Part shown: positions 9,511-26,864 of the stretch, one piece after another
Numbering within the stretch: position 1 is the stretch's first letter
Layout of the letters: every line of letters begins with the position of its first letter
Virus record (IMG/VR): IMGVR_UViG_3300018065_001156
Coordinates: 1 to 34,421 of that record
Reading direction: 5' to 3' (one strand)
Length of the DNA: 34,421 bases
Source: a virus
Notes under the pieces: model-generated
The model's database searches: none
The model's input: the letters and a program-made list of their open reading frames with translations, nothing else
What the model was told of the DNA's origin: nothing
Program-made: the position numbers and the translations under genes

Positions 9511-9866
9511 GTCGCTTACGGTTTATCAACGACGATAGCCAGAAAGTGCGCATGATACGCGCGCTCTATATAATCGTCTTCAACGCAGAAGAAAGTCTCA
9601 TCCCCTTAGCTACGGAGCTGTTTCACACCATCGGGGAAATCTTGGAGGGAACACCTCCGGAAGAGCTTCCTCTACATCGTATTCCCAAACCAACTTTCCT
9701 AGACACGTATAATGAATTGACACAAAAAACCGAGGTGAAAAAACCGAAGAGAAGAAGAGGTGAAAAAGATGGCAGACAAGAAGAAAAAGAAGACAACGGC
9801 ACCGAAGAAGAGCAGTGCCAAGAAGCCGGCGCCGAAAAAAGTACCACCGAAGAAGTCACCGGCTAA
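9471..9866 (+). CDS. hypothetical protein overlapping both neighbours
   Basis: 131 residues, unrecognised. The ATG lies inside the preceding zinc-ribbon gene with GGGAG seven bases upstream. Residues 1-85 have a plausible folded pattern (KVRMIRALYIIVFNAEESLIP, PLATELFHTIGEIL). After about residue 85 it becomes Lys/Glu-rich, and the last 98 nt are also the start of the ParB-like gene in another frame. It is the only ORF covering 9511-9768, which supports it being real; a later internal ATG (9553) is also possible. Confidence 0.55.
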   Translation: MQEVRFKAVRRKISRLRFINDDSQKVRMIRALYIIVFNAEESLIPLATELFHTIGEILEGTPPEELPLHRIPKPTFLDTYNELTQKTEVKKPKRRRGEKDGRQEEKEDNGTEEEQCQEAGAEKSTTEEVTG

Positions 9867-10776
9867 GAAGCCCGTGACCAAAGCGGCGGCACCTAAAGCC
9901 AAGGACGCCGGTGTGCCGGTTGTCAAATGGGCAATCTCCAACATCGTGCTTCCCAAGAAGTGGAACCGCCAGGAGATGCAGAAGAATGACCTCGCGGAGC
10001 TCACCGCGTCCATCCGCGCTCGGGGTCAGTTGGTCCCCTTGCAGGTCCGCATGACGGACAAGCCCACGAAAGTGGAGTTGGTGGAAGGGCGTCGTCGTCT
10101 GGCGGTCCTACAGGACCTAGGCCAAAGTCACGCACTGGTGTCCATCGTCAATGCCAAGGATGATATCGAGGCGTTCCTGCTGTCTCTGGTGACCAACCTG
10201 AACCGCAAGAACAACACGTCCTATGAAATCGCCGAGGGATTTGGCTTCCTGGTAGAGGCCGGAATGTCCAGCGAAGAGATTGCGAAGTCCTGCGGCAAGA
10301 CGCCGGGTTATGTCAGCCAGCATCTTGCGGTACTCAAAGCGGACCAGCGGTTGCAGATGGCGCTTCAGAAGGGGAAGGTTAACGTGTCTCTTTTCCGCTA
10401 CTTCACGAAGCTCGACCGCGAAGACGACAAGGACAAAAAGTTCTACGACAAGATGGTCGACCTGGTTCTCAAGGGCAATGTGACCGCACAAGACATCGGG
10501 GAGAAAATCGGCGTCTACAAGGACAAGCAGGCGGCGACCGACAAGTCCAAGAAGACGAAGCCCAAAAAGAAGGCCGGTCCGAAGGTCAAGGTGCTCGATT
10601 ACTCGGACCCGGTGATTACTAAAAACGCCAGGCCCGTGTCAAAAGACAAGGCTCTCAAGTACCTGGAGCACTACGCCAAGGTGGTAGAGAGCACGTCTCT
10701 GAAAACGAAGCGGGAGTACTATCGAGGGGTTCTTCTGGGCCTGGAACTCAGTGTCGGCTTAGCCGAGGAAGACTGA
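9769..10776 (+). CDS. ParB-like DNA-binding protein with histone H1-like Lys tail
   Basis: 335 residues from ATG 9769 (AGAGG eight bases upstream); a GTG at 9760 would add three residues. Residues 1-45 are a Lys/Ala/Pro tail with PKK and AKK repeats. A ParB/Srx domain follows: ISNIVLPKKWNRQ, LAELTASIRARGQLVPLQV, and LVEGRRRLAVLQDLG, the GERR-like nucleotide-binding motif. Then come LVTNLNRKN and a helix-turn-helix (MSSEEIAKSCGKTPGYVSQHLAVLKA, about 165-190). A second Lys-rich linker precedes a C-terminal helical region. ParB-type proteins bind and slide on DNA; here a role in genome segregation, compaction or regulation is possible. No parA partner is visible. Its stop codon directly abuts that of the convergent sigma gene. 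Confidence 0.85.
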   Translation: MADKKKKKTTAPKKSSAKKPAPKKVPPKKSPAKKPVTKAAAPKAKDAGVPVVKWAISNIVLPKKWNRQEMQKNDLAELTASIRARGQLVPLQVRMTDKPTKVELVEGRRRLAVLQDLGQSHALVSIVNAKDDIEAFLLSLVTNLNRKNNTSYEIAEGFGFLVEAGMSSEEIAKSCGKTPGYVSQHLAVLKADQRLQMALQKGKVNVSLFRYFTKLDREDDKDKKFYDKMVDLVLKGNVTAQDIGEKIGVYKDKQAATDKSKKTKPKKKAGPKVKVLDYSDPVITKNARPVSKDKALKYLEHYAKVVESTSLKTKREYYRGVLLGLELSVGLAEED

Positions 10777-11796
10777 TTACAGACACACCTCAGACAATTC
10801 CGTTATATTGTTCTTCTTCAGTTCCGACCGTATAGATTTTAATTTCATCTCTTTAATTTGGCGCACGCGCTCCGGTGTTATTCCAGTGAGTGCCGCCAGT
10901 TGATGGAGACTCTTAGGTTCTGTTTTACGGTCGTTTTGCGGCACACCGAAATAAGCCATGAAGATGAATAAGTCGCGCTCGCTTAGGTGCATTCTCCTTA
11001 GCGTTTTTCTAAGGAGATTTTCTGTGTCCAACTCGATAACATCTTCTTCCACATCCTGGTTCGAATCTATGGACAGATTATCCAATGGGAGCGCATCGTG
11101 CATAACTGCGGCGTAATTGTTTAAAGGCAATTCGAATTCGTGAACGGATTCCGAACAGGGAGGCAATGACTCTTCTTCGTCTGGGTAGTCCGTACGCATG
11201 CCGCAATGCTTACAGAGGTACTTGCCTTCCTTTATATTCTTACGAAGGGATTTCTGCCGGTGAGTAGGAACATGAACGAGCTTAGACGCACGTATTTCAT
11301 CGAGCATCTCTTTCCGTATCCACCATTCGGCGTAGGTGAGAAATCGCGTGTTCTGCTTCAACTTGAACTTGTCTACCGCTATCATCAATCCTACATTGCC
11401 GGCAGAGATTAATTTCTTAACGTGTTCCGGATTTGTCGTAATACTCTTCGCACGCCGAACAACAAAACGAAGATTAGCCACAACAACGCGTTGCCGCGCG
11501 TCCATGTCTCTGGGAGACCCGCAATCAGGGCAACGTTTTGGCACAATGGACGTGTCAAATTTACGCGAACAGGAGGTACAAGAGAGCACACGTTTCGCCG
11601 TATCATCCGGAGCAATCGCTCCGCAATGCGGACAGTTCGTAGCACGTATGGTGGAGGGAAGGTTTATATTACAGAGAGGACACGTGTGGTATCGTGTTAA
11701 CAGTTCCCGCTCTTCTTTCGGTGATAGTATTGGATGCTTTCCTACTTCTTGGTAGTACAAATCGTACACTTTGTCCGTAAAGAAATCCGATAACAT
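10777..11796 (-). CDS. RNA polymerase sigma-70-family factor with inserted zinc ribbons
   Basis: 339 residues. Region 1.2 reads KVYDLYYQEVGKHPILSPKEE. Region 2 is clear (RQRVVVANLRFVVRRAK, LISAGNVGLMIAVDKF, TRFLTYAEWWIRKEML, the -10-reading helix). Region 4 carries SLHQLAALTGITPERVRQIKE, the -35 helix-turn-helix. Between regions 1.2 and 2.1, residues 39-92 hold eight Cys as four CxxC pairs (39/42, 55/58, 73/76, 89/92), two zinc ribbons' worth. A further CxxC with a later C (195/198, 214) lies between regions 2 and 4. Such inserts are not usual in sigma factors. It should direct host or, more likely, phage RNA polymerase to phage promoters. Start 11796 is chosen because 11797-11865 is very AT-rich and holds a promoter; an in-frame ATG at 11865 behind GAGGTG would add 23 residues. 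Confidence 0.9.
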   Translation of the reverse strand: MLSDFFTDKVYDLYYQEVGKHPILSPKEERELLTRYHTCPLCNINLPSTIRATNCPHCGAIAPDDTAKRVLSCTSCSRKFDTSIVPKRCPDCGSPRDMDARQRVVVANLRFVVRRAKSITTNPEHVKKLISAGNVGLMIAVDKFKLKQNTRFLTYAEWWIRKEMLDEIRASKLVHVPTHRQKSLRKNIKEGKYLCKHCGMRTDYPDEEESLPPCSESVHEFELPLNNYAAVMHDALPLDNLSIDSNQDVEEDVIELDTENLLRKTLRRMHLSERDLFIFMAYFGVPQNDRKTEPKSLHQLAALTGITPERVRQIKEMKLKSIRSELKKNNITELSEVCL

Positions 11797-11904
11797 ATTT
11801 AAACCTTTCTTTAAATAAACATCGTATCGAAATATATAGACATTGCAACCATTTTTCATTAACATAAACGACACCTCGAAACCCACAACCTTTAAGGAGA
11901 CGGC
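11797..11904. promoter_or_regulatory. AT-rich divergent promoter region, sigma / ssDNA-binding-like gene
   Basis: Minus strand, toward sigma: TTGCAA (11848-11843), 16-nt spacer, TACGAT (11826-11821), start expected about 18 nt before ATG 11796. Plus strand: TAGACA (11837-11842), 17-nt spacer, TAACAT (11860-11865), start expected near 11872, ahead of the AAGGAG site and ATG 11905. The -35 boxes overlap or adjoin, so the two promoters would compete or be jointly controlled. Confidence 0.45.
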
Positions 11905-12930
11905 ATGAGTAAAAAGAAAGAGACCCAAGAGAAACCTGCCTCTGACGAGACCGCTATCGTCAAAGCGCTGGAGGGCCCGTTGGCTCCTCTGGAAGACAGC
12001 CACCCGCTCTTCCTGACCAAATACAAGGAAGACCTCACACGCGTATCGCAGACGTTACCGTCCCCGGTAGAACTGCAAAAAATTCTTCAGGCGCTACCCG
12101 AAGATATCCAAGGGAATGTCAGCGACATCATCAAAAAGACTTCCGGAAAGAAGCGCGGTGTTTACACCGACGACAACCGTCCGGACTTCCCGGAACTGCG
12201 GCTGTTCCACGGAAGCGGTAACGACCCCAATCGCCCGGAGAACATGGTGCCCGGTCACTTCTACCTGAACACAAAAGAGAACGTCGGGCAGGAGTTCGTG
12301 GGTGCTGTTCTGGCCATCTGGGAAGGGCGCACGATGTGGGGCGACCGCGACAGTGGGGACGCCAGTGGGATGCCCATCTGCCAGTCCATGAACCGGTCGG
12401 TGGGAAGCACGTACGGAACCTGCCAGAGCTGCCCGCACCGCCCCTGGAGAGACGGCGAGAAACAGAAATGCAGTGATGACGTCGTTGCGTTTATGTTGAC
12501 CAAAGACCTCACCGAGTTGGTCTTGGTGCGCTTCTCGAAAACCTCGGAGCCGGCAGGACGCCGCCTCCTCCGCATGGCCAAGCGCGATATCGAGCTGTGG
12601 TCCAAGTGGTACAGCATTACCAGCGATTCCCGTACGAGTCAGCAAGACAAGAACTGGCGCTGGTACGTTATGCAAGTCGAGCCCGCCGAGGGAGACGACA
12701 ACCTGGTACAGGAAGAAGTCTACCCGTTCTGTGAAGCAATGTGTACGCTGCTGGAAGCGTCCATTATTCTGCCCAAGATGGCGGATACCTACAACTCGGC
12801 GCGCAAAGTCCTCGACGGTGAAGAAGAGATTGAAGAGGAGGAAGAAGGGGGAGGTGACGTAAAACCTCTCCAGGGTGAAGGTGATGATTACGGCGACATG
12901 CCGGAAGCACCAGAAGACGACAACGTTTAG
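11905..12930 (+). CDS. putative ssDNA-binding / replication accessory protein with acidic tail
   Basis: 341 residues. The centre has GMPICQSMNR, then C173-x2-C176 (TCQSCPHRPW) and C189, followed by a beta-rich segment (DDVVAFMLTKDLTELVLVRFSKTS) and WRWYVMQVEP. This Cys spacing followed by a predicted OB-like region resembles the zinc-containing ssDNA-binding proteins of many phages. The last 37 residues are strongly acidic (EEEIEEEEEGGGD, ending PEAPEDDNV), like the protein-recruiting tails of SSB and T7 gp2.5. It opens the replication operon, is preceded by AAGGAG and is followed by a terminator, which fits a protein made in larger amounts than its neighbours. The assignment is by pattern, without a decisive motif. 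Confidence 0.6.
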   Translation: MSKKKETQEKPASDETAIVKALEGPLAPLEDSHPLFLTKYKEDLTRVSQTLPSPVELQKILQALPEDIQGNVSDIIKKTSGKKRGVYTDDNRPDFPELRLFHGSGNDPNRPENMVPGHFYLNTKENVGQEFVGAVLAIWEGRTMWGDRDSGDASGMPICQSMNRSVGSTYGTCQSCPHRPWRDGEKQKCSDDVVAFMLTKDLTELVLVRFSKTSEPAGRRLLRMAKRDIELWSKWYSITSDSRTSQQDKNWRWYVMQVEPAEGDDNLVQEEVYPFCEAMCTLLEASIILPKMADTYNSARKVLDGEEEIEEEEEGGGDVKPLQGEGDDYGDMPEAPEDDNV

Positions 12931-16800: not shown

Positions 16801-17152
16801 ACAGGGCCAACTGTTGCTGTTCCTACTCGACCAGGCAGTCCCTAAACTGCTACCGTACCACATGAAGTATCCCGGCCTATCTACGATACGAATGAAGGAA
16901 ACGCTGGACCGCCACAAAGCGGCACTAAACCCACAAGAGGTACTGAAATCCGGTATCTTACGCCGTGTAGGGCCTCACCTCGGCGCCGGTATTCACTTGC
17001 AGGACGTTGTAGTCCTGCGGGCGAAGGCCTGGTTGGACTCCGCTGAAGAGTCTATGCAAGCCGCCATGGAAGACGCAGAAGAGGCCAGAGAGGAGGACGT
17101 CAGCGATGCCCCAGGAAACAACCTCAACTACGACTTCCCCGAAGAAGCCTAA
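13781..17152 (+). CDS. primase-helicase (CHC2 zinc finger, Toprim, P-loop ATPase)
   Basis: 1123 residues from ATG 13781 behind AGAGGGG; an ATG at 13763 is less likely. Zinc finger C52-x4-H57 with C75-x2-C78 (CYGCDTYT) is the DnaG-type CHC2 template-binding finger. A Toprim domain begins near residue 297 (IYLLEGEIDALS), with GFMVGDSLAAKGEG about 50 residues later. A P-loop ATPase follows: Walker A GDTHSGKS (about 729-736), Walker B LVICIDEFES (about 776-785), then TTRTRGRPDGSYYETPLKCP and a sensor-like IFSAIQGAERP with a possible arginine finger (LNRM). This order gives primer synthesis and unwinding in one chain, as in T7 gp4 and phage primase/D5-like proteins, though the ATPase does not look like DnaB. 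The C-terminus is acidic. It overlaps the DNA polymerase start by 47 bp. Confidence 0.87.
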   Translation: MAKQKPRNKVTRQQLRKIWKRLGYQNWLDILNTHKRNHNFVPAGQGILKGLCINPEHDDSVPSFFLNVEKGFVKCYGCDTYTSNPLTVLSWILDLPDSEALQQIQDKYGINFLPTKALAELEEQRLNSKIKEEIYQTTHQMMCDGIADPTKNENAFAVKGVDWLVNDRKIPKDTLHLLPIGVMPELARLQGAVFDRYNVKKAAWQNGPQDKPEPVDLTTPVFNYLKDYIKGSTFIGGILFPLHANIREIGRIKLRAARSKEFLFIDDPFEDSLGLFGLGWEQYKIFQDAKSKVDFIYLLEGEIDALSLMSRFMQQHGKALYPVVSVGGKSGAPYIEPALSASGISRGFMVGDSLAAKGEGVVEEWMKQVTDLHVRIFNGWDKLQSTDDIDEAVIMLGEKAVTKVLYNKFDDNFTTPSQWAYTRADREMAAIDEHDYRALMETAANHGTYLNNKIECEHYAEQIATAYNINSDILKREISTRENTEDGFILRCTDALKSILFPVSTDLVRGQRILILYDKVRKRFNNIRLDSPQSLSQELAPIVGTLYDFVNDKVGYPTFLQMPGEDGLVRESVDKKLKFYLKEAVQNMAQGSPDALTTFKYKQGYHVINTPNLEQREYIVCGPDVIRLDRTEKDVTYTELEGPSDEGVLFDIGFKSMVRTPWYPRGMTTDVLNRHKNTDLRNLYETLYTLYSSAFNFKHHEVTSKLLASLMMVLPIMDVFERPLLMFITGDTHSGKSHLAATFAGVSYKKMQILYAGHGTEDFTAASVASMADSSSLVICIDEFESSDPTKRDNARRIFEMFRSLIGGATTRTRGRPDGSYYETPLKCPVIFSAIQGAERPQDLNRMLHIEMHKIEGKMSPLNVLHKEIGIDKLRKLRQGVNLGMYPHALELAQLEQDIIGNFQELQAELPFDVEWRMASSLFSPLAVMRHIGLDWKGFFKEYVQTNEALITRASTISESETYLNAMLRHAAIHQRDLPPVSVAQLLNSPERRPEINTASCGVYYDEQGQLLLFLLDQAVPKLLPYHMKYPGLSTIRMKETLDRHKAALNPQEVLKSGILRRVGPHLGAGIHLQDVVVLRAKAWLDSAEESMQAAMEDAEEAREEDVSDAPGNNLNYDFPEEA

Positions 17153-20150
17153 ACCGTTACAATGTAATCTCTGCCAGGAGAACACAGCGTGGAAAGGACC
17201 GCTGTGCCAGAAATGTCGTCTTTTTAAACAAAAGCACTACGCAGAAGGAACCGGGGATACCGAGAATGTCGCCTATTTCTGTGTCGCTGAGTGGCCGGAC
17301 CTACGAGGGCCTTCCGGCAATGTGACCAGTCATCAAACGTGGGCCTATGACGCGGAGAAGATGATTAAGGACGCGTTTCTCGACGCGAAGAGCCGCATAA
17401 AGAACTACGCTAAAGTTCGTGGGCGGTACACGTTCGCAATACATTGTGATGTTAATACGAACACGGACTCACAAGCGGACAAAAAGCCCACGAAGAAGAC
17501 GATGGACTATTGCTACCCACTCCTCAAAAAAGAACTGTTAACCTACGCCCGCAAGGATAAGCCGATAATGGTTTTCGCGGCGGGGCCTCTCGCGCTTAAA
17601 GCGCTGGGTTTCAAGTTCCGAAAATACGCTAACGTCCAAGGCAAGTTCCTGGAAACCACGATAGACGGTCGGCGGGTGGTTGCATTCCCGTCAATGTCGA
17701 AGCGTCAACTCTTAACCAAATCCGGATTCGTTGAAGTAATGCAACGGCATGTCGACCAATTCCTCTCTACCGTTTACGGGCTGGATAAAAACATCCCGGT
17801 ACAAACGGAGGTGCCTTTTGAAACACTCATCAAACAATACGTCTTTCCGAAAACACTGAAAGAAGTTCGTGAACTGGTAGAGATGGTTGTCGACTTCTCA
17901 TTCGACGGTGCTCCTGCGCACAAACACCCTATCGCATTGGACACAGAGACGAACACCGTCAACCCTCACCGTGAAAAACTGAAGCTACTGAACCTGGTTG
18001 TTGCGTGGGCTCCAGGGAAGGCCGCTGCGATTCCGGTTGAACACCCGGAATCTCCCTGGACGTTGGACGAGGTGTATCCGTGTATTGCACCGCTGTTGAA
18101 GTGTCGCAAGCCAAAGGTATTTCACAATGGACAATTCGATATCAAAGTACTGAAACAGAAAGGCTGGTCTGTAAACAATTACGGCTGGGATACGATGCTA
18201 GTCGAGCATTTACTGGCCGAGGACAAGCGCGGCTTCTATAGCCTGAAAGCTATGACCAAAATGATGCTCCCGCAATACGCGGGATACGAGGACCAGCTAC
18301 AGGAGATAAAAGCACGCATAGATAAGGAGGTGCCGAAAGACGATAAAGAAGAAACGGAAAAAACAAAACCCAAGGAAGCGCTGAAGGGTGCTGAGAAGAA
18401 GCTGGCGGAGGACGATGGGTATATCAGCATCCCACTAAAGGTGTTGAACGAATACGCCGCTATCGACGCCGATGTCACGCGGCAGTTGTTTGACCAGCAG
18501 TGGGTTAGGATACGAGACGAAAACAACACCCTGAACTACGCCAGAAAAACGTTGCGGAGAAATCGTCACGAGGATTTCCAAAACGCAGCGAAGCCCGGAA
18601 TTGGCGTACCTAACCCCACCACGAACCTGTTGTGGAACCTGGTTATACCTGCGACAAAGGCACTAGCCAACATGGAGCTACGAGGGATGCGTGTCGACCG
18701 TGAATACGCTGAAGAGCTCAACACGGCGATGACTAAATCCATCATGATATTACGTAATGAGTTATACCTCATGACGCCGCAGGGGCTTTTTGAAGGCGAG
18801 GACTTCAATCCGAACAGCTCACCACATCTTCGACGCGTGTTATTTGGCAGTGGTTACCACCACCCGGACGACTCGCGACGCGTTATTACATACACACACT
18901 TATTGGACAGCGACAGCATCGCCAAAACACCAACGGGGCAAATCTCTACTAACAAGAATTTCTTGCGGTACCTTGTCCAGCAACACGAGTGTGCGTTCTC
19001 TAAAGTACTCTTGAAATACCGCGCGTTGGTTAAGGCGCAGTCTACGTTTATCAACAATATACAGGCGCTCAGTAAGGAAGATGGCCGAATGCATACGTCG
19101 TTTCACGTCGTAGGTACCGCAACTGGCCGGCTATCGTCATCCAATGAGAATATGCAGAACATCCCCAAATTCATCGGCGAACACAACATCAAAAAGATAT
19201 TCATCCCAACAGACCCGGAGAATCAAATTATCGTAAACGCGGATGCCAAAGCCGCTGAGGTGCGTGTGTACGCGGCCTACAGTAGGGACAAAAACCTGAT
19301 ACAGGCATTGAACGAGGGCCTGGACCCGCACAGCTTCTTTGCCTCGAAGGTTTATGACCCGTCCGTGGTGCTCTCCGGCGTCCCCCAATCGGAACAGAAG
19401 AATACGCTGTCGCTCATAGGAATTGACGAGAACCACGCGTGGAACTACAGCGATTTCCAGAATCGCTACACATTCAAGAAAACGGATGGCCCGTATTACC
19501 GCCAACTGGACAAGCTGCGGACCAACATCAAGCGCGTGGTCTTTGGTATTCTGTATGGCGCAGGTAAACGGAAGATAGCAGAGACCGCTGGAATCCCTCT
19601 GGAGCAGGCACAGGCTATCATCGACGTACTGTTCCGTATGTTCCCGACGATTCCTAGATACATGCGCACCACCAAAGACCAAATACATCTCCTGGGTGTT
19701 GTTGAAACCTTCCTCGGCAGACGCCGCCGATTCATGATAAAGAACATGACGCAGTACCTGAAAGCGAAAGCCGAGCGTCAATCCGTTAATTTCAAAATCC
19801 AAAGTACATCGTCGGACATTGTGCTTGGTGTCCTCACCGACATCGATGGCCCGCTACGTGACCTGGAATCGCGGTTGCTCATCACCGTTCATGACTCCGT
19901 CGTCTTTGAGACCCCGAAGAAATATGCGGGGCAACTTTCCGACTTCATGGAAGAGTATGGCGTACGGCGCGTTGCGGAGAAGTACCCATGGCTTCCTGTC
20001 CCGTTTAAATGGGACGTAGAGGTGGGGCCGTCATACGGGGAACTCCAGGATGTTGACGATTACCTCAAAGACCACCCCCGCATCATCGAAGAAGGTGATG
20101 ATTACATAGACATGGACATCCGTCAGGACTTAGCAAATTTAGGCGGATAA
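17106..20150 (+). CDS. family A DNA polymerase with UDG-like N-terminal domain and 3'-5' exonuclease
   Basis: 1014 residues. A zinc finger (C20, C23, C34, C37) precedes a region of about 55-235 resembling a family 4/5 uracil-DNA glycosylase: CVAEWPDLRGPSG (GEAPG-like), then PIMVFAAGPLALKALG, then VVAFPSMSKRQLL where the usual catalytic His is absent. The exonuclease has IALDTETNTVNP (about 276), FHNGQFDIKVL and EYAAIDADVT. Polymerase motif A is NADAKAAEVRV (about 710, catalytic Asp and steric-gate Glu kept), motif B is RTNIKRVVFGILYGAG (about 803), and motif C is ITVHDSVVF (about 926) with HDS in place of HDE. A UDG-PolA fusion is known in SPO1-type phages, several of which use modified bases. 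ATG follows GAGGAGG. It is the replicative polymerase of this phage by context. Confidence 0.93.
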   Translation: MPQETTSTTTSPKKPKPLQCNLCQENTAWKGPLCQKCRLFKQKHYAEGTGDTENVAYFCVAEWPDLRGPSGNVTSHQTWAYDAEKMIKDAFLDAKSRIKNYAKVRGRYTFAIHCDVNTNTDSQADKKPTKKTMDYCYPLLKKELLTYARKDKPIMVFAAGPLALKALGFKFRKYANVQGKFLETTIDGRRVVAFPSMSKRQLLTKSGFVEVMQRHVDQFLSTVYGLDKNIPVQTEVPFETLIKQYVFPKTLKEVRELVEMVVDFSFDGAPAHKHPIALDTETNTVNPHREKLKLLNLVVAWAPGKAAAIPVEHPESPWTLDEVYPCIAPLLKCRKPKVFHNGQFDIKVLKQKGWSVNNYGWDTMLVEHLLAEDKRGFYSLKAMTKMMLPQYAGYEDQLQEIKARIDKEVPKDDKEETEKTKPKEALKGAEKKLAEDDGYISIPLKVLNEYAAIDADVTRQLFDQQWVRIRDENNTLNYARKTLRRNRHEDFQNAAKPGIGVPNPTTNLLWNLVIPATKALANMELRGMRVDREYAEELNTAMTKSIMILRNELYLMTPQGLFEGEDFNPNSSPHLRRVLFGSGYHHPDDSRRVITYTHLLDSDSIAKTPTGQISTNKNFLRYLVQQHECAFSKVLLKYRALVKAQSTFINNIQALSKEDGRMHTSFHVVGTATGRLSSSNENMQNIPKFIGEHNIKKIFIPTDPENQIIVNADAKAAEVRVYAAYSRDKNLIQALNEGLDPHSFFASKVYDPSVVLSGVPQSEQKNTLSLIGIDENHAWNYSDFQNRYTFKKTDGPYYRQLDKLRTNIKRVVFGILYGAGKRKIAETAGIPLEQAQAIIDVLFRMFPTIPRYMRTTKDQIHLLGVVETFLGRRRRFMIKNMTQYLKAKAERQSVNFKIQSTSSDIVLGVLTDIDGPLRDLESRLLITVHDSVVFETPKKYAGQLSDFMEEYGVRRVAEKYPWLPVPFKWDVEVGPSYGELQDVDDYLKDHPRIIEEGDDYIDMDIRQDLANLGG

Positions 20151-20654
20151 GCAGGTAAAAGAAGCTGTACTGGCATCCTTTAACTGTGAGGATAGGGAAA
20201 GCAACTTTCCCGTGCGTAATGCAGTGTGCGCTATAGACTCAGGAGACAAGCCCATGTCGCCAAAAGCGCTGGTGTTTCACACCGTCGCTGTTCGCCAACA
20301 TGGACAAGTCACCGTGAATCAAGCAGTACGGCTCGTTATGGTCATGCAGGGCTGCGCCTGGAGACTTCGCTTCCAGAGCGCGGCCCGTGCAGACAATACG
20401 AAGATAGCAGTACGTCATCCGGTGATATCTTTCGGCCCGGGGGCTCAAACGCCTGTTTGTGCCCGTCGGGCCTCAGATATCAACGGAAAGAAAGCAGTAC
20501 GAAAAATTTCTGTTGGCGCTTCTCTTCTGTTGGGTGCAGGGGACGTTACGTCCCTGAAAGAATTCGAACAACAGCATGCGACGCAATCCTGCGGCGCATT
20601 AAGGCCGTCTTTCCGCCACATGGCGCGGAAATACGCCACGTTTAGCAACAGAGA
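20151..20654 (+). ncRNA. candidate large structured non-coding RNA, family not assigned
   Basis: This 504-nt stretch is the only long gap in the window and is filled with nested helices in order. ATCCT/AGGAT pairs 20175-20179 with 20089+100 (20189-20193); GGGAAAG/CTTTCCC pairs 20195-20201 with 20205-20211. A rod runs from CCATGT (20252) to ACATGG (20303). A roughly 20-bp stem spans 20346-20390. A stem of about 23 bp spans 20423-20482, and 20527-20574 holds a CAGGG/CCCTG hairpin inside CTGTTG/CAACAG. A TGCG/CGCA hairpin spans 20577-20598 and a 7-bp TTTCCGC/GCGGAAA hairpin spans 20610-20631. Two G-T pairs inside otherwise perfect stems (20353-20382, 20270-20284) would be mismatches on the other strand, favouring a plus-strand transcript that continues from the polymerase operon. 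Size and complexity recall phage-borne RNAs such as GOLLD or ROOL, but I cannot assign a family. An open frame with an AGGAG site (ATG 20254 to 20664) exists; its very basic, irregular product and the stem density argue against it. Confidence 0.75.
20322..20501 (+). repeat. three copies of AGCAGTACG inside the structured RNA
   Basis: The nonamer occurs at 20322-20330, 20406-20414 and 20493-20501, spaced 84 and 87 nt. Copies one and two each open a module consisting of a long hairpin, and copy three opens the last multi-hairpin part. GTACTG at 20167-20172 is complementary to CAGTAC in each copy, so alternative long-range pairings are possible. All copies fall in the same reading frame (Ala-Val-Arg), which keeps a protein explanation formally open. 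Confidence 0.7.
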
Positions 20655-22265
20655 TTACTGGTAAAATTTCAGGTCGTTCTGGGTTATCTTGAAGGCAATC
20701 CAACCGAACAGACCTGCGTGGAGGCAGTCATCCGGTTTCTGGGGTGAGTGCCTCCACACTTTTTTACCCGTAGTGGTTATCTCTTCGTACTCGTTAAGCA
20801 TGTCGTCGATGGCTATCTTCGACTCTTCCGCGTTCAAGAACTCTACACCTTTATTTTTCAAAAACATGAAGTAGTTGTCGATGAGGGTTGTGCGGTCAGC
20901 GGTAAACCGGTCTTTCTTATTCCACTTCAAGGCCTCTACTTGCGAGCCGTACTGTACTTGGTGCACCCGATGGTGTCCAAGAACGGTACGTAGCTGATTA
21001 TTCGCCGTATGCCCCTCACCGGCATCTCCCACCACCATCTCCACACGGTAATTGGTGCATATCTGACCAATCTTATCGATGATGTGTATCGGATTTACCC
21101 CGGGAAAAACTTTGTAGAACATGCACACAAGTTTCTGTCTTTCCCGGTGCCATCCCCATATCCACAACACGGTTCGAGAAATGCCGGTAGTCCCGCCACC
21201 CGACCAGTCTATTCCCGCCACCGTCATGCTGATACCTTGCATGGTATTCCCATCCGGGGCCTCGCGCCCTTCACGCGATGTACACAGCGATTCCAATTCC
21301 TCCTTCGAAATCATCCGCGTTCCTATAGCATCAGAAACGCCAAGAACCTCATTACGAAAAACAGAGATAGGGCTCTCTTCATACTTTCTAACGATACGCC
21401 GCCAACGTCTGCGCGCAATATCCATAATCTCATTACTGTTGGTGTACTGCATAGCCAGAGGGACGTTGAAGGGCATGATAACCTGGCTGAAATGAAAACC
21501 CTTTAACATCATATCGGCGTCGTCTTTGTCTGCCGGCGGATTAATATCAATCCATTGTCCTGTGAAAGGATTAAGGTACGCGCCACATTTCACACAGACG
21601 GGGCCGTCTTTGCCGATAGACTTTTCACTGTCCACATACTGGTGCACACCACAAGCGCCGCACTTCATCACCCACTCGGTCTGTGTGCTGATTTCCCAAA
21701 GGTACTGGATGGTATTTTCCATCGTTTTTGGGGTACCAGCATATGTTTCGTATTGATAATCGGATTGGGCGAGAGTCTCATTGCCGACCGTAATAATGGG
21801 GTCGAACAACATGTCTTGTACTTCATCGTACATATTGCGGTCCGTAGAGGGACCCCGCAAACGGTCCGCTGCATCGCTACCGTACGTGAATAGCATTTCC
21901 GAGCCGTTGGTGAACTGCTTGTGAAACACACGGTCTGACAAGTCCGGGTCCAAAAAACGCTTGTTGATAACCGGGGAATAGCGCATCGTCTTGTTGACGC
22001 GAGTATTTGAAAACCGTACGGTTTGCTCCTTAGTTGGACTTACGAACATTGTTGAAAAGTGCGGTATCACACTGCATTCGATAATGGAGAAATTACTACA
22101 GGTCGTGCTCTTAGCGACTTGGCGGCCTGTTTTTAATAGTGTGCGTTGGAACTGGCAATCGTAAATATCACGATGCATGGGCCAGTCCTTCAGGGAGAAC
22201 TTTTTGCCATCTAAACGAAGCCACGCTTCTGCGACTACACTCAAAGTTGCAGATATCTTAGCCAT
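20655..22265 (-). CDS. terminase large subunit with inserted zinc ribbon
   Basis: 536 residues from ATG 22265; a longer frame to 22334 would overlap the MoxR gene. ATPase: Walker A GRQVAKST (47-54) and Walker B MYDEVQ (145-150), with AGTPKTMENT as coupling-like motif. Zinc ribbon C202-x2-C205 and C224-x2-C227 lies between the ATPase and nuclease. RNase H-like nuclease: D353 in AGIDWSGG, D414 in VVGDAGEGH, and DD at 512-513 in KPDDCLHAGLFGW. This is the motor that packages and cuts the genome. No small subunit is recognisable next to it, and the portal gene is 16 kb away, which is unusual. It converges on the structured RNA at 20151-20654. Confidence 0.95.
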   Translation of the reverse strand: MAKISATLSVVAEAWLRLDGKKFSLKDWPMHRDIYDCQFQRTLLKTGRQVAKSTTCSNFSIIECSVIPHFSTMFVSPTKEQTVRFSNTRVNKTMRYSPVINKRFLDPDLSDRVFHKQFTNGSEMLFTYGSDAADRLRGPSTDRNMYDEVQDMLFDPIITVGNETLAQSDYQYETYAGTPKTMENTIQYLWEISTQTEWVMKCGACGVHQYVDSEKSIGKDGPVCVKCGAYLNPFTGQWIDINPPADKDDADMMLKGFHFSQVIMPFNVPLAMQYTNSNEIMDIARRRWRRIVRKYEESPISVFRNEVLGVSDAIGTRMISKEELESLCTSREGREAPDGNTMQGISMTVAGIDWSGGGTTGISRTVLWIWGWHRERQKLVCMFYKVFPGVNPIHIIDKIGQICTNYRVEMVVGDAGEGHTANNQLRTVLGHHRVHQVQYGSQVEALKWNKKDRFTADRTTLIDNYFMFLKNKGVEFLNAEESKIAIDDMLNEYEEITTTGKKVWRHSPQKPDDCLHAGLFGWIAFKITQNDLKFYQ

Positions 22266-22299
22266 ACACCCACTATAAAAGGAAAAAGGAGGAGAAGCA
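22266..22299. promoter_or_regulatory. 34-bp divergent promoter region, terminase / MoxR ATPase
   Basis: Plus strand: TATAAAA (22274-22280) lies 19 nt before the ATG, followed by AAGGAGGAG as ribosome binding site. No -35 box at standard spacing is visible. The terminase side has only a weak GTGGGTG as ribosome binding site, and its promoter must overlap the 5' end of the MoxR gene. Confidence 0.35.
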
Positions 22300-23526
22300 A
22301 TGTCATCCAACAAAGCCGAAGAAGGCAAACTCAACTACGTGGACCGCTACGACATGGCGCACGTGAGTTTATCCGAAGCCAAGGAGCAGGTCATCCTGCA
22401 AATCAAAAGTGGCCAGACGAGAGGCTGTCCGCTTTTCGTCGGAGAAAGCGGCATCGGAAAGACGCAGATTTGGAGCTCAATCGCAAAAGAGACCGGAATG
22501 GGTCTCACCGCCATCCACACCGCCCACTACGGACTCATGGGCGCCGGCATTCCCGTGCCGACCGAGAAGGAGTTCTTCGATATCGCCCTGCCGTCCATCT
22601 TTCCGTCAAACGGAACCAAACGCATCATCCTTTTCGATGAAATCAATCGCGGAGCAAAGTACGTGGTCAACATGTTCTTCACGCTCATGGAAGACCAGAA
22701 GATATTCAACTACACGCTCCCGGAAGGCTGCATCGTCGCCGCAACCATGAATCCCTCCACCGGCCAGTACTCCGTTACGGAACTCGAAAACGAAGTCGCT
22801 TTCCGGCGTAGGATGAAGTGGTTCTTCATCAGTCCCGACTTCAAGGGCTGGCTGAAGCACGCGGAAACCGAGGCCTTTCACGCCAACTCCCGAGGCGTCG
22901 CAAAGGACAAACCCTGTCATCCCGCCGTGCTGTCCTATTACCGCGCCAAACCGAAGAACATCTACGATGTAAAAGCGAAGGACGAAGGGAAGCTCTTCTG
23001 TTGTCCGGCGTCCATCGAAACCGTTTCCGAGGACGTTTACAACATGGAAGCCCACGAAATCCCCATCCACGGTGAGTTCGCTTTGAATCGTATCGGGTCC
23101 ACCATCGGCATGGCCATGGCAGCGGAAGTCATCGCGCACCTGAAGGACAGCTCCGTCACCCTCAGCGCGGATGATGTTCTGACGAACTTCAAGAAGGTGA
23201 AGCGTGCCATCAAGAACATGGTGAAAAACTCCATGCACGAGCAGCTGATGGACCTCAGCCTGAACGTCATGAAACTGCTGTTCGCGACCACCCCGGACAT
23301 CGATAAAACGTCACAGAACTTCATCCTGTTCTGCGACGCGTTGCCACTGGAGCTGTCGTCCAACATGCTCTTCGGTATGAAGAAAATTGCCCAGGAGAAC
23401 CAGGCCGAAAAGTACATGTACGACTTCCTGGATGAGCTTCAGGAAGATGACAAATGGATTAATCTACAGACTCGGATTGACAAGGATTATCGGTCAATCG
23501 ACGAGAGTCTCAAGAAAGGGGATTGA
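22300..23526 (+). CDS. MoxR-family AAA+ ATPase
   Basis: 408 residues behind AAGGAGGAG. Walker A GESGIGKT (48-55), an IPVPTEK loop, Walker B IILFDEIN (109-116), sensor 1 IVAATMNPS (about 145-153) and an Arg-finger region with FRRRMKW are the MoxR/RavA order, followed by a helical lid. MoxR ATPases act as chaperones on metal-loaded or vWA-domain partners. A vWA/metallopeptidase protein of the expected partner type is encoded at 25338-26864, separated only by two genes on the other strand. Its codon usage is more GC-rich (many GCC, CTC, ATC) than the neighbouring terminase. The 3' end overlaps the convergent gene by 17 bp. Confidence 0.9.
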   Translation: MSSNKAEEGKLNYVDRYDMAHVSLSEAKEQVILQIKSGQTRGCPLFVGESGIGKTQIWSSIAKETGMGLTAIHTAHYGLMGAGIPVPTEKEFFDIALPSIFPSNGTKRIILFDEINRGAKYVVNMFFTLMEDQKIFNYTLPEGCIVAATMNPSTGQYSVTELENEVAFRRRMKWFFISPDFKGWLKHAETEAFHANSRGVAKDKPCHPAVLSYYRAKPKNIYDVKAKDEGKLFCCPASIETVSEDVYNMEAHEIPIHGEFALNRIGSTIGMAMAAEVIAHLKDSSVTLSADDVLTNFKKVKRAIKNMVKNSMHEQLMDLSLNVMKLLFATTPDIDKTSQNFILFCDALPLELSSNMLFGMKKIAQENQAEKYMYDFLDELQEDDKWINLQTRIDKDYRSIDESLKKGD

Positions 23527-24274: not shown

Positions 24275-25285
24275 TTACTGACTGTACGCGGCCAGTTGCG
24301 TTTCCAGGGCTGACTTGAGGTCTGCCGGCAGCGTAGCAAGAACCTGCTCCAGCGCCGTGATATCCACCTGACCCTCCGGAGCCACCTCTTTGGCAATGTC
24401 CGGGCCTAAGGTGTCTTCCCAAAAGGAGAGGGGGAGCTGCGCCAAGAGCGCCTTGTTCTGTAGCGCAGACCCGAACTTGATGTAGTCCTGCGGGTCCTCG
24501 GTCGTATTGAAGACGGTCTGAATCGGGTCCGGCAACTGCTTCCCGTAAAACTGCGTGAGACCGGCTTTCTTGTCTAGGTCACTGATGGCCTGTGCCAGCT
24601 TTATCTGGTACGCACGGTCAGCAATGTATGCGTCCGAGCTCTTGAACTCGTTGTCAATTTTGTCAAAGACATTCGCCAATGACGACCCCAGTTTAGTGGC
24701 CGCCGCGTGGCGGGCACCAATCCAGTCACGGAGAATCCGCGTACTGGTAATGGTAAACCCGGCCAGCTTCTTGGTCTCAGGCTTCAATGGAACGCTATGC
24801 TGCTCGGCGATTTTCACCAAGCGGTAACCTGCTTCTGCGCGGTCCGCGACCGTGAGCTCCGCGTACTTTTCGTGATATACACGCTCCACATCGGCTACAG
24901 CACTCGGGGAGTCTACACGAAACCGCTTTTTTTCTGGTAAAAGGTACTGACCGTCCGACGCTGTTTTCGTAATCTCCATGGACTGCTCAAAAACGGTGCG
25001 GTCAATCTGGTACAGGTCCGCTGCCTTTTCGAGCATCTGCTGAACGTCAGACGGCAACATCGCGGCGAGCTTACTGTACCCATATGAAAGCGCAGCATGC
25101 TGAGCATTATGGATAGGAAATCGGCGAATACCAGGCCACGCAAACGACTCATCGGGCAACTCCGAGAATTCGGAGTCATCGAGATTCGCAGTCTTGGCCA
25201 TGGTCTTCAATTCCGGAAAACGTTCCACTACAACGCGGAGCGTTGCGAACCCGGAGTCACTCGTTTGGTCTGTAATATTTTTCAT
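24275..25285 (-). CDS. hypothetical, mostly helical protein
   Basis: 336 residues, unrecognised. Start at 25285 behind CGAGGTG. The chain is predicted largely alpha-helical and soluble (LPSDVQQMLEKAADLYQ, SAVADVERVYHEKYAELTV, ALEQVLATLPADLKSALETQ). It ends with an Ala/Gln-rich helix. It is first in a two-gene minus-strand unit divergent from the vWA operon. A virion scaffold or internal head protein would fit the composition; this is a guess from context only. Confidence 0.75.
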   Translation of the reverse strand: MKNITDQTSDSGFATLRVVVERFPELKTMAKTANLDDSEFSELPDESFAWPGIRRFPIHNAQHAALSYGYSKLAAMLPSDVQQMLEKAADLYQIDRTVFEQSMEITKTASDGQYLLPEKKRFRVDSPSAVADVERVYHEKYAELTVADRAEAGYRLVKIAEQHSVPLKPETKKLAGFTITSTRILRDWIGARHAAATKLGSSLANVFDKIDNEFKSSDAYIADRAYQIKLAQAISDLDKKAGLTQFYGKQLPDPIQTVFNTTEDPQDYIKFGSALQNKALLAQLPLSFWEDTLGPDIAKEVAPEGQVDITALEQVLATLPADLKSALETQLAAYSQ

Positions 25286-25337
25286 AAAAACACCTCGTAC
25301 CCAACGTTTCTATAAGTATAGAGAGAGGAGGAGAAGA
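25286..25337. promoter_or_regulatory. 52-bp divergent promoter region, helical protein / vWA operon
   Basis: The gap carries GAGGTG for the minus-strand gene and GAGAGGAGGAG for the plus-strand gene. TATAAGTATA (25311-25320) is a good -10-like box 18 nt before the plus ATG; on the minus strand the same bases read TATACTTATA. No -35 match is present for either direction. Confidence 0.4.
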
Positions 25338-26864
25338 ATGAAAGAGAATTCTGTTGAAGCCACTCCTGATACATCTCCCACGGACGCGTTAGCCGCGTGT
25401 CTTCAATGGGCGTGTAATCCCCGTGGTGGAAATAACCTGTACGGACGCACACTTAACGGATGTGGGCGCCAAGCAAAACCTGGCCTGGGTACCCTTGCGG
25501 TAACCCTGGACCGTAGGGGCCGTTACCACTTTGTCTGGGACCCGGAATGGTTCGCCAAACAAGACAAAGCATTTCAGCTTATCGGCATCTTCCACGAAGC
25601 CGGACATCTGATTCTCCAGCACCTGGAGCGTCAGTTGAAGCTGAAGCTCGACATGAATGACGACCGCAAGTACGCCCGGATAAAGGACCTCATCTACATC
25701 GCAGGAGACATGGCGGTAAACGACGTGGCGATTCGTCCGCTGATTTCATCCTCAGCCGCATTCGCTGCACACGAGAAACGCCTCGTGTGGCCGGAAGAGC
25801 GTCAGTACCCCCCAGGGAAGTCATTCGAGACCTATCTGGCCCTCCTCCTGAAAGACCTTCGGGATGAGGGTTGGGACCCCGACGCCGAACCTGAGCCCCA
25901 GAAGATAGCCGTTCTTACCGACGGTGACAGTGCCGGAGGAGGGGAAGGAGAGAACGACGACAAACAACCGCAATCCGGAAGTGGTGATGGTGATGGCGGA
26001 GGAGAAAACTCCGACCTTCCCGACTGGGTACTCGACCTACGCAGCAAAGCCAACAAACACGTCGATTGGGAAAAAGACTTCGATGACATGAACGACGCTG
26101 AAGTTGAGCGCGCCATCAGCCGTGCCAATAAAGAAGCCCGTAAAATCGTAAAAACGGCTGTGGAACAGACACAGAAGAACCGTGGGACCATCCCAGGCGC
26201 GCTGGGGAATATCATCGAGGAGCTCCTGCAAGAGCACACCATTCCCTGGCAAACTGTCCTGATGGGGCTCATCAAGTCTGAAATCTCATCCAAACTGGAC
26301 GAGAGTACGTCTCAGCCCAACCCCTGCTACTTCCATCTCATGAAAGACGGAATCGCTCCGTACCCAGGATACCAGCACAACTTCGCGTTCCGTATGGTGC
26401 TTGCGGCAGATACGTCCGGGAGTGTCAGTGACAGCGAGTTCCAGGATTTCATGGCCGAGATGCAGGGACTGCTCCGGGAAGAAGATGACGTGACCGCGTG
26501 GCTACTCATGTTCGATGCGGGCATCCAGCATGAGAAGGTACTTGAGGACGGCGACACCGTGAGTCTGCGCGAATTCGCAACACACCGCTACGGCTACGGC
26601 GGAACATCCTTTATCCCCCCGCTGAAATACGTTGTAGGAGAAGACACCGATGCGGATTGGGAAGAGAGCTCCGAGCGCGCAAATCAGCGGCTCATGGAGC
26701 CTCCGGACCTCGTTGTGATGTTTACCGATGGCTACGCACCCGTGGAGAGCCCTAGTGGGCCCATCCCGGATTACCTACCCCCGTGCCCGCTGATATGGGT
26801 ATTGACCCCCTCCGGGCAAGAGCACGACCTGATGCAACCTCGGGTTCTGCGGATAAAAGATTAG
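25338..26864 (+). CDS. metallopeptidase-like / vWA-domain protein (DUF2201 type)
   Basis: 508 residues from the ATG behind GGAGGAG. The N-terminal domain has a zinc peptidase motif HEAGH (86-90) followed by IAGDMAVNDVAI (about 121-132), which can supply further ligands. A Gly/Asp/Glu-rich linker (about 194-224) follows. The C-terminal vWA domain carries the MIDAS start DTSGSVS (358-364), with a threonine/aspartate later (TDGYAP). This two-domain layout is the putative metallopeptidase plus vWA family usually paired with a MoxR ATPase, here the gene at 22300-23526. The pair may remodel or mature a phage or host complex. It heads the operon containing the reverse transcriptase. Confidence 0.88.
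   Translation: MKENSVEATPDTSPTDALAACLQWACNPRGGNNLYGRTLNGCGRQAKPGLGTLAVTLDRRGRYHFVWDPEWFAKQDKAFQLIGIFHEAGHLILQHLERQLKLKLDMNDDRKYARIKDLIYIAGDMAVNDVAIRPLISSSAAFAAHEKRLVWPEERQYPPGKSFETYLALLLKDLRDEGWDPDAEPEPQKIAVLTDGDSAGGGEGENDDKQPQSGSGDGDGGGENSDLPDWVLDLRSKANKHVDWEKDFDDMNDAEVERAISRANKEARKIVKTAVEQTQKNRGTIPGALGNIIEELLQEHTIPWQTVLMGLIKSEISSKLDESTSQPNPCYFHLMKDGIAPYPGYQHNFAFRMVLAADTSGSVSDSEFQDFMAEMQGLLREEDDVTAWLLMFDAGIQHEKVLEDGDTVSLREFATHRYGYGGTSFIPPLKYVVGEDTDADWEESSERANQRLMEPPDLVVMFTDGYAPVESPSGPIPDYLPPCPLIWVLTPSGQEHDLMQPRVLRIKD

Follow-up and report, generated by a model that had tools for sequence, protein, structure and literature searches.

The window, the whole stretch of 34,421 nt analysed here, carries a family A DNA polymerase gene (polA; 17106–20150, plus strand; Pfam PF00476) and, downstream and convergent to it, the gene of a gpA-type terminase large subunit (20655–22334, minus strand; Pfam PF05876). 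The two genes converge on a gap at 20151–20654. With polA ending at 20150 and the minus-strand terminase gene at 20655, the gap has the size of 504 nt given in a first-pass annotation of this DNA, which had proposed a structured RNA here. Other genes of the window encode a ParB-like protein (9760–10773, plus strand), a phage sigma factor (10780–12003, minus strand) and an HNH endonuclease (25194–26861, plus strand). No tRNA genes were found in the window, and a tRNA reading of the gap was dropped on that account. The same 504 nt are present in a near-identical contig of 37,446 bp (IMGVR_UViG_3300017991_000227), which for this reason contributes no covariation.

The minimum free energy (MFE) of the gap on the plus strand is -207.5 kcal/mol, compared with -167.1 ± 6.6 kcal/mol for 100 dinucleotide shuffles. 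None of the 100 shuffles was as stable (z = -6.08), so that the thermodynamic check proposed for the structured RNA came out in its favour, and the gap ranks among the most stable 504-nt stretches within the window. The long stems claimed earlier are present in the RNA fold at 20341–20394 and 20418–20487, as are hairpins at 20539–20555, 20576–20599 and 20603–20637. The earlier description of the gap as a chain of stems holds to that extent; it missed three AGCAGTACG repeats, the 5' strand TGTACTG and a second closed domain at 20505–20656. The minus strand of the gap folds at -220 kcal/mol, and the strand of the RNA is therefore not fixed by fold energy alone. In the P1 helices and linkers, 15 G·U pairs stand against one A·C pair, which places the RNA on the polA strand, in agreement with the earlier argument from G-T pairs. 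The plus-strand call is based on these G·U pairs together with promoter-like and terminator-like signals and the matches of a covariance model.

Domains and signals of the window RNA

The RNA probably starts at about 20166, where the first domain (D1; 20166–20501, plus strand) opens with TGTACTG (20166–20172), the 5' strand of its closing helix P1. It is followed by hairpin P2 (20175–20193), found in the fold and in the match to covariance model R1, by hairpin P3 with a GCAAC loop (20195–20211), supported by loop enrichment and by P3 covariation, and by a long variable stem, P4 (20236–20320), predicted in the fold. In the rest of D1 the P1 3' strand occurs three times, with long hairpins between the copies. 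A search for repeats and pairing places the three AGCAGTACG copies at 20322, 20406 and 20493, 84 and 87 nt apart. The first (20322–20330) contains a P1 3' strand at 20324–20330, the second (20406–20414) an alternative one at 20408–20414, and the third (20493–20501) the one that pairs in the MFE fold, at 20495–20501. Variable module hairpin 1 (20333–20401) and variable module hairpin 2, a long stem also detected as inverted repeat I1 (20418–20487), lie between them in the fold. The second domain (D2; 20505–20656, plus strand) is closed by an 11-bp P1 formed by 20505–20515 and 20646–20656 (AATTTCTGTTG/CAACAGAGATT), and its 3' end overlaps the terminase stop codon. Hairpin P2 of D2 (20516–20537) is found in the fold and in the R1 match, hairpin P3 with a GTTAC loop (20539–20555) by loop enrichment and the R1 match, and the fold adds the hairpins at 20576–20599 and 20603–20637. 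Both domains of the window have a P3 hairpin with a GNNAC-type loop (20195–20211 and 20539–20555) and a closing P1 with AG before the 3' strand.

The 5' strand TGTACTG is able to pair with all three downstream CAGTACG copies, each preceded by AG, where 0.065 sites are expected in shuffles; AGCAGUACG, with three copies in the window element, holds the candidate pairing partners. The unconstrained fold pairs TGTACTG with the third copy, and forcing the second costs 2.2 kcal/mol and the first 6.8 kcal/mol. A search of IMG/VR for two copies of AGCAGTACG was set aside, since beyond the near-identical contig the matches resembled coding repeats or chance.

A predicted -10-like promoter box, GGTAAAA (20154–20160, plus strand), lies 12 nt before P1 and reads GGTATAA in relatives. 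Eight clade-A elements (L125–L129, L132, L134 and L138) have a GGTATAA or GGTAAAA box 12–13 nt before the P1 5' strand, and such a box is also found near the start of L177, L184, L207, L216, G017 and G019. The phage sigma factor of the window could read the GGTATAA box. At the other end, L142 and L143 finish with GC-rich stems and then T runs (intrinsic terminators), and terminator-like stems follow the elements of G005, G013, G017 and G019. In the window, a hairpin with T6 inside the terminase C-terminus (20718–20763, on the RNA strand) is a doubtful terminator; its T run falls on conserved Lys codons, and some relatives lack it.

A family of modular RNAs in related phages

Relatives with terminases at 48–72% amino acid identity expose the RNA family. 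A scan based on aligned terminases yielded 33 close relatives (60–72% identity), including the window's own near-identical contig, and a wider scan yielded 57 loci, including clades at 48–57% identity. The polA-terminase gap is 0–10 bp in some of these relatives and 128–1154 nt in others, and the RNA at this site measures 165–1154 nt. In distant clades the gap grows to 1.3–2.3 kb and begins with an ORF-like part and continues with an RNA array; in PolA relatives at 42–48% identity it is only 0–1 bp. Half of the relatives share the convergent orientation of the flanking genes seen in the window. BLAST similarity between the inserts is nearly nil save for a few near-identical pairs, and one architecture is common to all.

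One RNA is a chain of 2–5 similar domains, found at one or several genomic loci. A domain runs from the P1 5' strand, usually followed by GGA or GGC in the window's clade, through P2, P3 and long variable hairpins to "..AG" and the P1 3' strand. P3 is a stem of about 6 bp, separated from the preceding P2 by at most two bases, and its loops are GTTAC, GCTAC, GTAAC and GCAAC, with GTAGT or GTAGC in clade B. Hairpins of the P3 type with GNNAC loops number 1–8 per element, against about 0.1–0.9 expected, in nearly all elements; as the search used the motif itself, it is the shuffled sequences that provide the valid test. A P1 helix with a score of at least 7 adjoins P3 in 78% of units, compared with 10% in shuffled controls.

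The repeated 3' strands are not peculiar to the window. Many genomes have one P1 5' strand facing 2–9 identical 3' strands, with an unrelated hairpin after each. L129 has three clear copies, L132 nine, L134 three, L138 four and L206 five, while L198, L200, L202 and L213 have two or three, and the same arrangement was recognised by eye in G026 at 101 kb. The number of modules ranges from 1 to 9 across elements. In L132, eight modules show no mutual BLAST similarity and the linkers are nearly invariant. L133 and L134 are otherwise about 99% identical, with exactly one repeat-plus-hairpin module lost between them. Together, the L132 modules and this loss indicate that the linkers are under selection and that the hairpin sequences turn over. 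Kissing loops through self-complementary GAGCTC/CTCGAG were also considered and rejected, with only about twofold enrichment (17 elements against 8–9 expected).

The stems covary among relatives, as the RNA interpretation of the first-pass annotation demanded. In 30 units of the window's clade, which have 20 distinct P1 5' strands, 99.5% of the last seven P1 positions are paired within a unit, and pairing falls to 67% when the 3' strands are swapped between genomes. Since pairing was the criterion by which the P1 helices were chosen, the test lies in the swap and in the shuffled control. In plain MAFFT alignments, P2 and P3 of clade A reach a covariation score of 0.590, compared with 0.260 in shuffled and at most 0.262 in slid versions. 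P2 alone does not score above a one-column slide in clade A, and the covariation there is thus carried mainly by P3. P2 covariation is supported in clade B, where the whole domain (14 copies) scores 0.426 against 0.142 shuffled, 98.4% of cells are paired against at most 48% in slid versions, and P1 has double changes in 6 of its 7 pairs.

A covariance model, R1, was built of the P1 5' strand, P2 and P3 from 25 units of other genomes with the window left out. It matched both window domains, at 20166–20215 with 37.4 bits (E of roughly 1.4e-6) and at 20509–20559 with 33.8 bits (E of roughly 8.9e-6), and the next best match had 16.9 bits. R1 did not reach the distant clades, where elements were recognised by the geometry of P1 and P3 instead.

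The RNA is also found away from the terminase. Four relatives without an insert between polA and terminase carry RNA clusters elsewhere in the genome (G019 at 51.2 kb, G013 at 14.9 kb, G017 at 81.6 kb and G016 at 117.6 kb), tens of kb from a conserved terminase, with P1 helices of up to 17 bp. Additional loci are present in G005, G023, G024 and G026, and the number per genome reaches two to four in some cases. The count of RNA clusters across 13 records (1.76 Mb) was 17, compared with 1.0 in locally shuffled sequence; among the 17 are a few echoes of palindromic hairpins on the reverse strand, as well as a pair in a coding region of G026. No RNA clusters were found in G018, G029 and G011, all three of which are partial contigs.

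Several further observations were made in these genomes. A second recurring RNA site (G005 131.9–132.5 kb, G013 14.55–15.15 kb and G016 117.4–118.3 kb) has downstream of it a small gene (GYVDTQTGGLLIADGIWE in G005) and then a nucleoside-monophosphate-kinase-like gene. G026, a 198-kb phage contig, has 38 tRNAs and a tmRNA (L301 4134–10724, about 104–111 kb) some 3–10 kb after one of its RNA arrays, and in G005 (22.5 kb; L269 2516–2589) a minus-strand tRNA-Gln gene sits inside a plus-strand RNA array. The PolA encoded at L004 5908–10257 (1449 aa) has an Intein_splicing match at residues 706–1099 with E 5e-8, just under the cut-off, and the PolA matches of several relatives split near residue 677, an apparent insertion at the same site. 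L218 (QMZE01000001.1; 78,677 bp), a contig of the RNA-bearing phage lineage, is binned in a MAG named Archaeoglobales; it is probably a mis-binned virus, the other reading being a hint about the host. IMGVR 3300014914_000004 is likewise 78,677 bp long. Among named phages, similar terminases reach identities of only about 26–29%. In one of these phages, Salmonella phage Arash (29%), no P3 hairpin was seen in the stretches examined; Arash has two unannotated gaps of about 0.9–1 kb among its structural genes (L220 753–1656 and 2542–3537).

Interpretation and possible functions

Taken together, the gap is read as a plus-strand gene of a large non-coding RNA with two similar multi-helix domains, a member of an unreported RNA family found in large tailed phages, with a probability of about 0.8. 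This figure covers the RNA gene, its domain structure and the family; a scaffold role for the RNA carries a minority probability. The gap might instead hold a protein gene in the frame 20254–20664, its hairpins being incidental. The frame is open for 136–150 aa, AGGAGA gives the ATG at 20254 a good Shine-Dalgarno sequence, and the codon score is borderline, ranking near the 1st percentile among real genes, just within range. We consider this reading highly improbable in the face of covarying RNA helices. The frame has no Pfam, PHROGs, phage or IMG/VR match save the near-identical contig and is kept in no relative, which favours an RNA, and the ORFs of other elements are mostly of chance length, none resembling it (best tblastn E 0.12). 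Weak Redoxin and PHROG matches of the gap translation were rejected as grounds for a protein. It is also quite improbable that the RNA is a cis-acting 3' UTR of the polA mRNA that protects the message or blocks convergent transcription and has no function of its own. Such a UTR would suit the position between convergent genes in the window and half of the relatives, but the relocated copies of G017 and G019 have different neighbouring genes and a promoter-like box and terminator of their own, and the RNA is far larger, and its fold more conserved, than a bidirectional terminator needs.

The position beside the terminase had earlier been taken to allow a packaging RNA like the phi29 pRNA, forming a ring at the portal and driving the terminase encoded next door. 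The RNA does adjoin the terminase in many relatives, some with terminases only 48–57% identical, and pRNA, too, is known to vary in sequence on a fold that is conserved. The relocated copies in G013, G016, G017 and G019, where the terminase is conserved, and the two to four loci of some genomes deprive the idea of its positional support; no genomic tie to packaging genes holds across the relatives, and adjacency was dropped as evidence once these copies were found. In addition, gpA-type terminases differ from the phi29 motor, the size and fold differ from those of pRNA, and Rfam gave no pRNA match. A packaging role thus has a slim chance. A decoy or sponge is a possible though rather unlikely reading, about as probable as the strand-exchange form of the scaffold described below. 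Here the conserved linkers would carry variable hairpins that capture or divert an RNA-binding protein of the host, a ribosome or a defence sensor. The hairpins are structurally alike with unrelated sequences (as in the eight L132 modules without BLAST similarity), the module number varies from 1 to 9 with clean loss by recombination (L133 against L134), and a multi-copy array is a fitting form; a decoy fits the hairpin arrays almost as well as a scaffold does. It leaves unexplained the closed domains, the conserved P3 loop, the P1 covariation and the need for linkers to match the 5' strand.

From the sequences we infer that inside infected cells the RNA may act as an architectural scaffold, perhaps self-assembling through its P1 strands; such a role would suit joints that are invariant on arms that are free, a module number that varies, and a single 5' strand faced by several 3' strands. 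The excess 3' strands would allow RNA molecules to link up with one another or with a repeated partner, assembly size would depend on the number of modules, and the sequence of the hairpin arms would be free to change while that of the joints would not. A specific form of the scaffold, in which homo-oligomers arise by strand exchange and the P1 5' strand pairs with 3' strands of its own molecule or of others, is put forward as an unlikely but explicit proposal. If true, the module number (1 to 9) would determine how large an RNA-only scaffold or compartment becomes in infected cells. The repeated joint makes a clear, testable prediction about RNA self-assembly, and the natural variants, with 1 to 9 modules and the L133/L134 module-loss pair, offer a handle on why phages keep giant RNAs.

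Comparison with known RNAs

All families of Rfam 15, including GOLLD, ROOL, OLE, HEARO and pRNA, were compared with the window and with the loci of seven relatives, and none gave a match at gathering score. At E ≤ 0.5 no match was found in the loci of six relatives, and a permissive scan of 19900–20900 gave only a chance snoRNA match (E 0.074). With BLASTN, nothing convincing came up among phages for the elements of the window and of two relatives, nor among plasmids for the window element. Literature searches, which covered mainly open-access journals and reached few subscription journals and preprints, gave papers on GOLLD and ROOL and no description of this modular RNA. The first-pass annotation had left open whether the RNA belongs to a known ornate family or to a new class; the covariance-model scan that it suggested (GOLLD, ROOL, OLE and pRNA) placed it in none of these, and the comparative evidence supports a new class. 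The RNA family and its architecture appear to be new, within the already loose category of large phage RNAs of unknown function. To our knowledge, very few large structured RNAs of unknown function have been described, and the present one would add a further giant phage RNA family of different modular design, with several copies per genome.

The antitoxin RNAs of type III toxin-antitoxin systems (ToxI and relatives) are tandem structured RNA repeats, short and nearly identical. The present RNA shares the tandem arrangement and differs from ToxI in that its linkers are identical but its hairpins unrelated. The phi29 pRNA, of about 120–174 nt, has variable sequence on a conserved fold and is encoded near packaging functions. 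The RNA described here is similarly a phage RNA near packaging functions that keeps its fold while its sequence drifts; unlike pRNA, it is multi-domain, is 165–1154 nt long at the polA-terminase site and is not tied to the terminase, and the pRNA model matched no part of it.

GOLLD is a large phage RNA, over 800 nt in many members and often near tRNA islands, with one conserved 3' region and a variable 5' region (PMC12286853). The present RNA is likewise a large structured phage RNA, the G026 array lies about 4.5 kb before a tRNA island, and the G005 element overlaps a tRNA-Gln gene on the opposite strand. Linkers of GOLLD have been reported to hold tRNAs. The present RNA differs from GOLLD in repeating one domain in tandem and in having several copies of a P1 3' strand, and the GOLLD model did not match. 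ROOL is a large ornate RNA of phages and prophages with a single fold containing pseudoknots (PMC12286853). At about 650 nt ROOL is of similar size and also ornate, but no model match was obtained, and a modular chain of varying length stands here against a single pseudoknotted fold. Both GOLLD and ROOL have recently been shown to form homo-oligomeric RNA cages without protein (PMC12286853). They assemble by other contacts than the P1 pairing in trans that is proposed here (PMC12286853).
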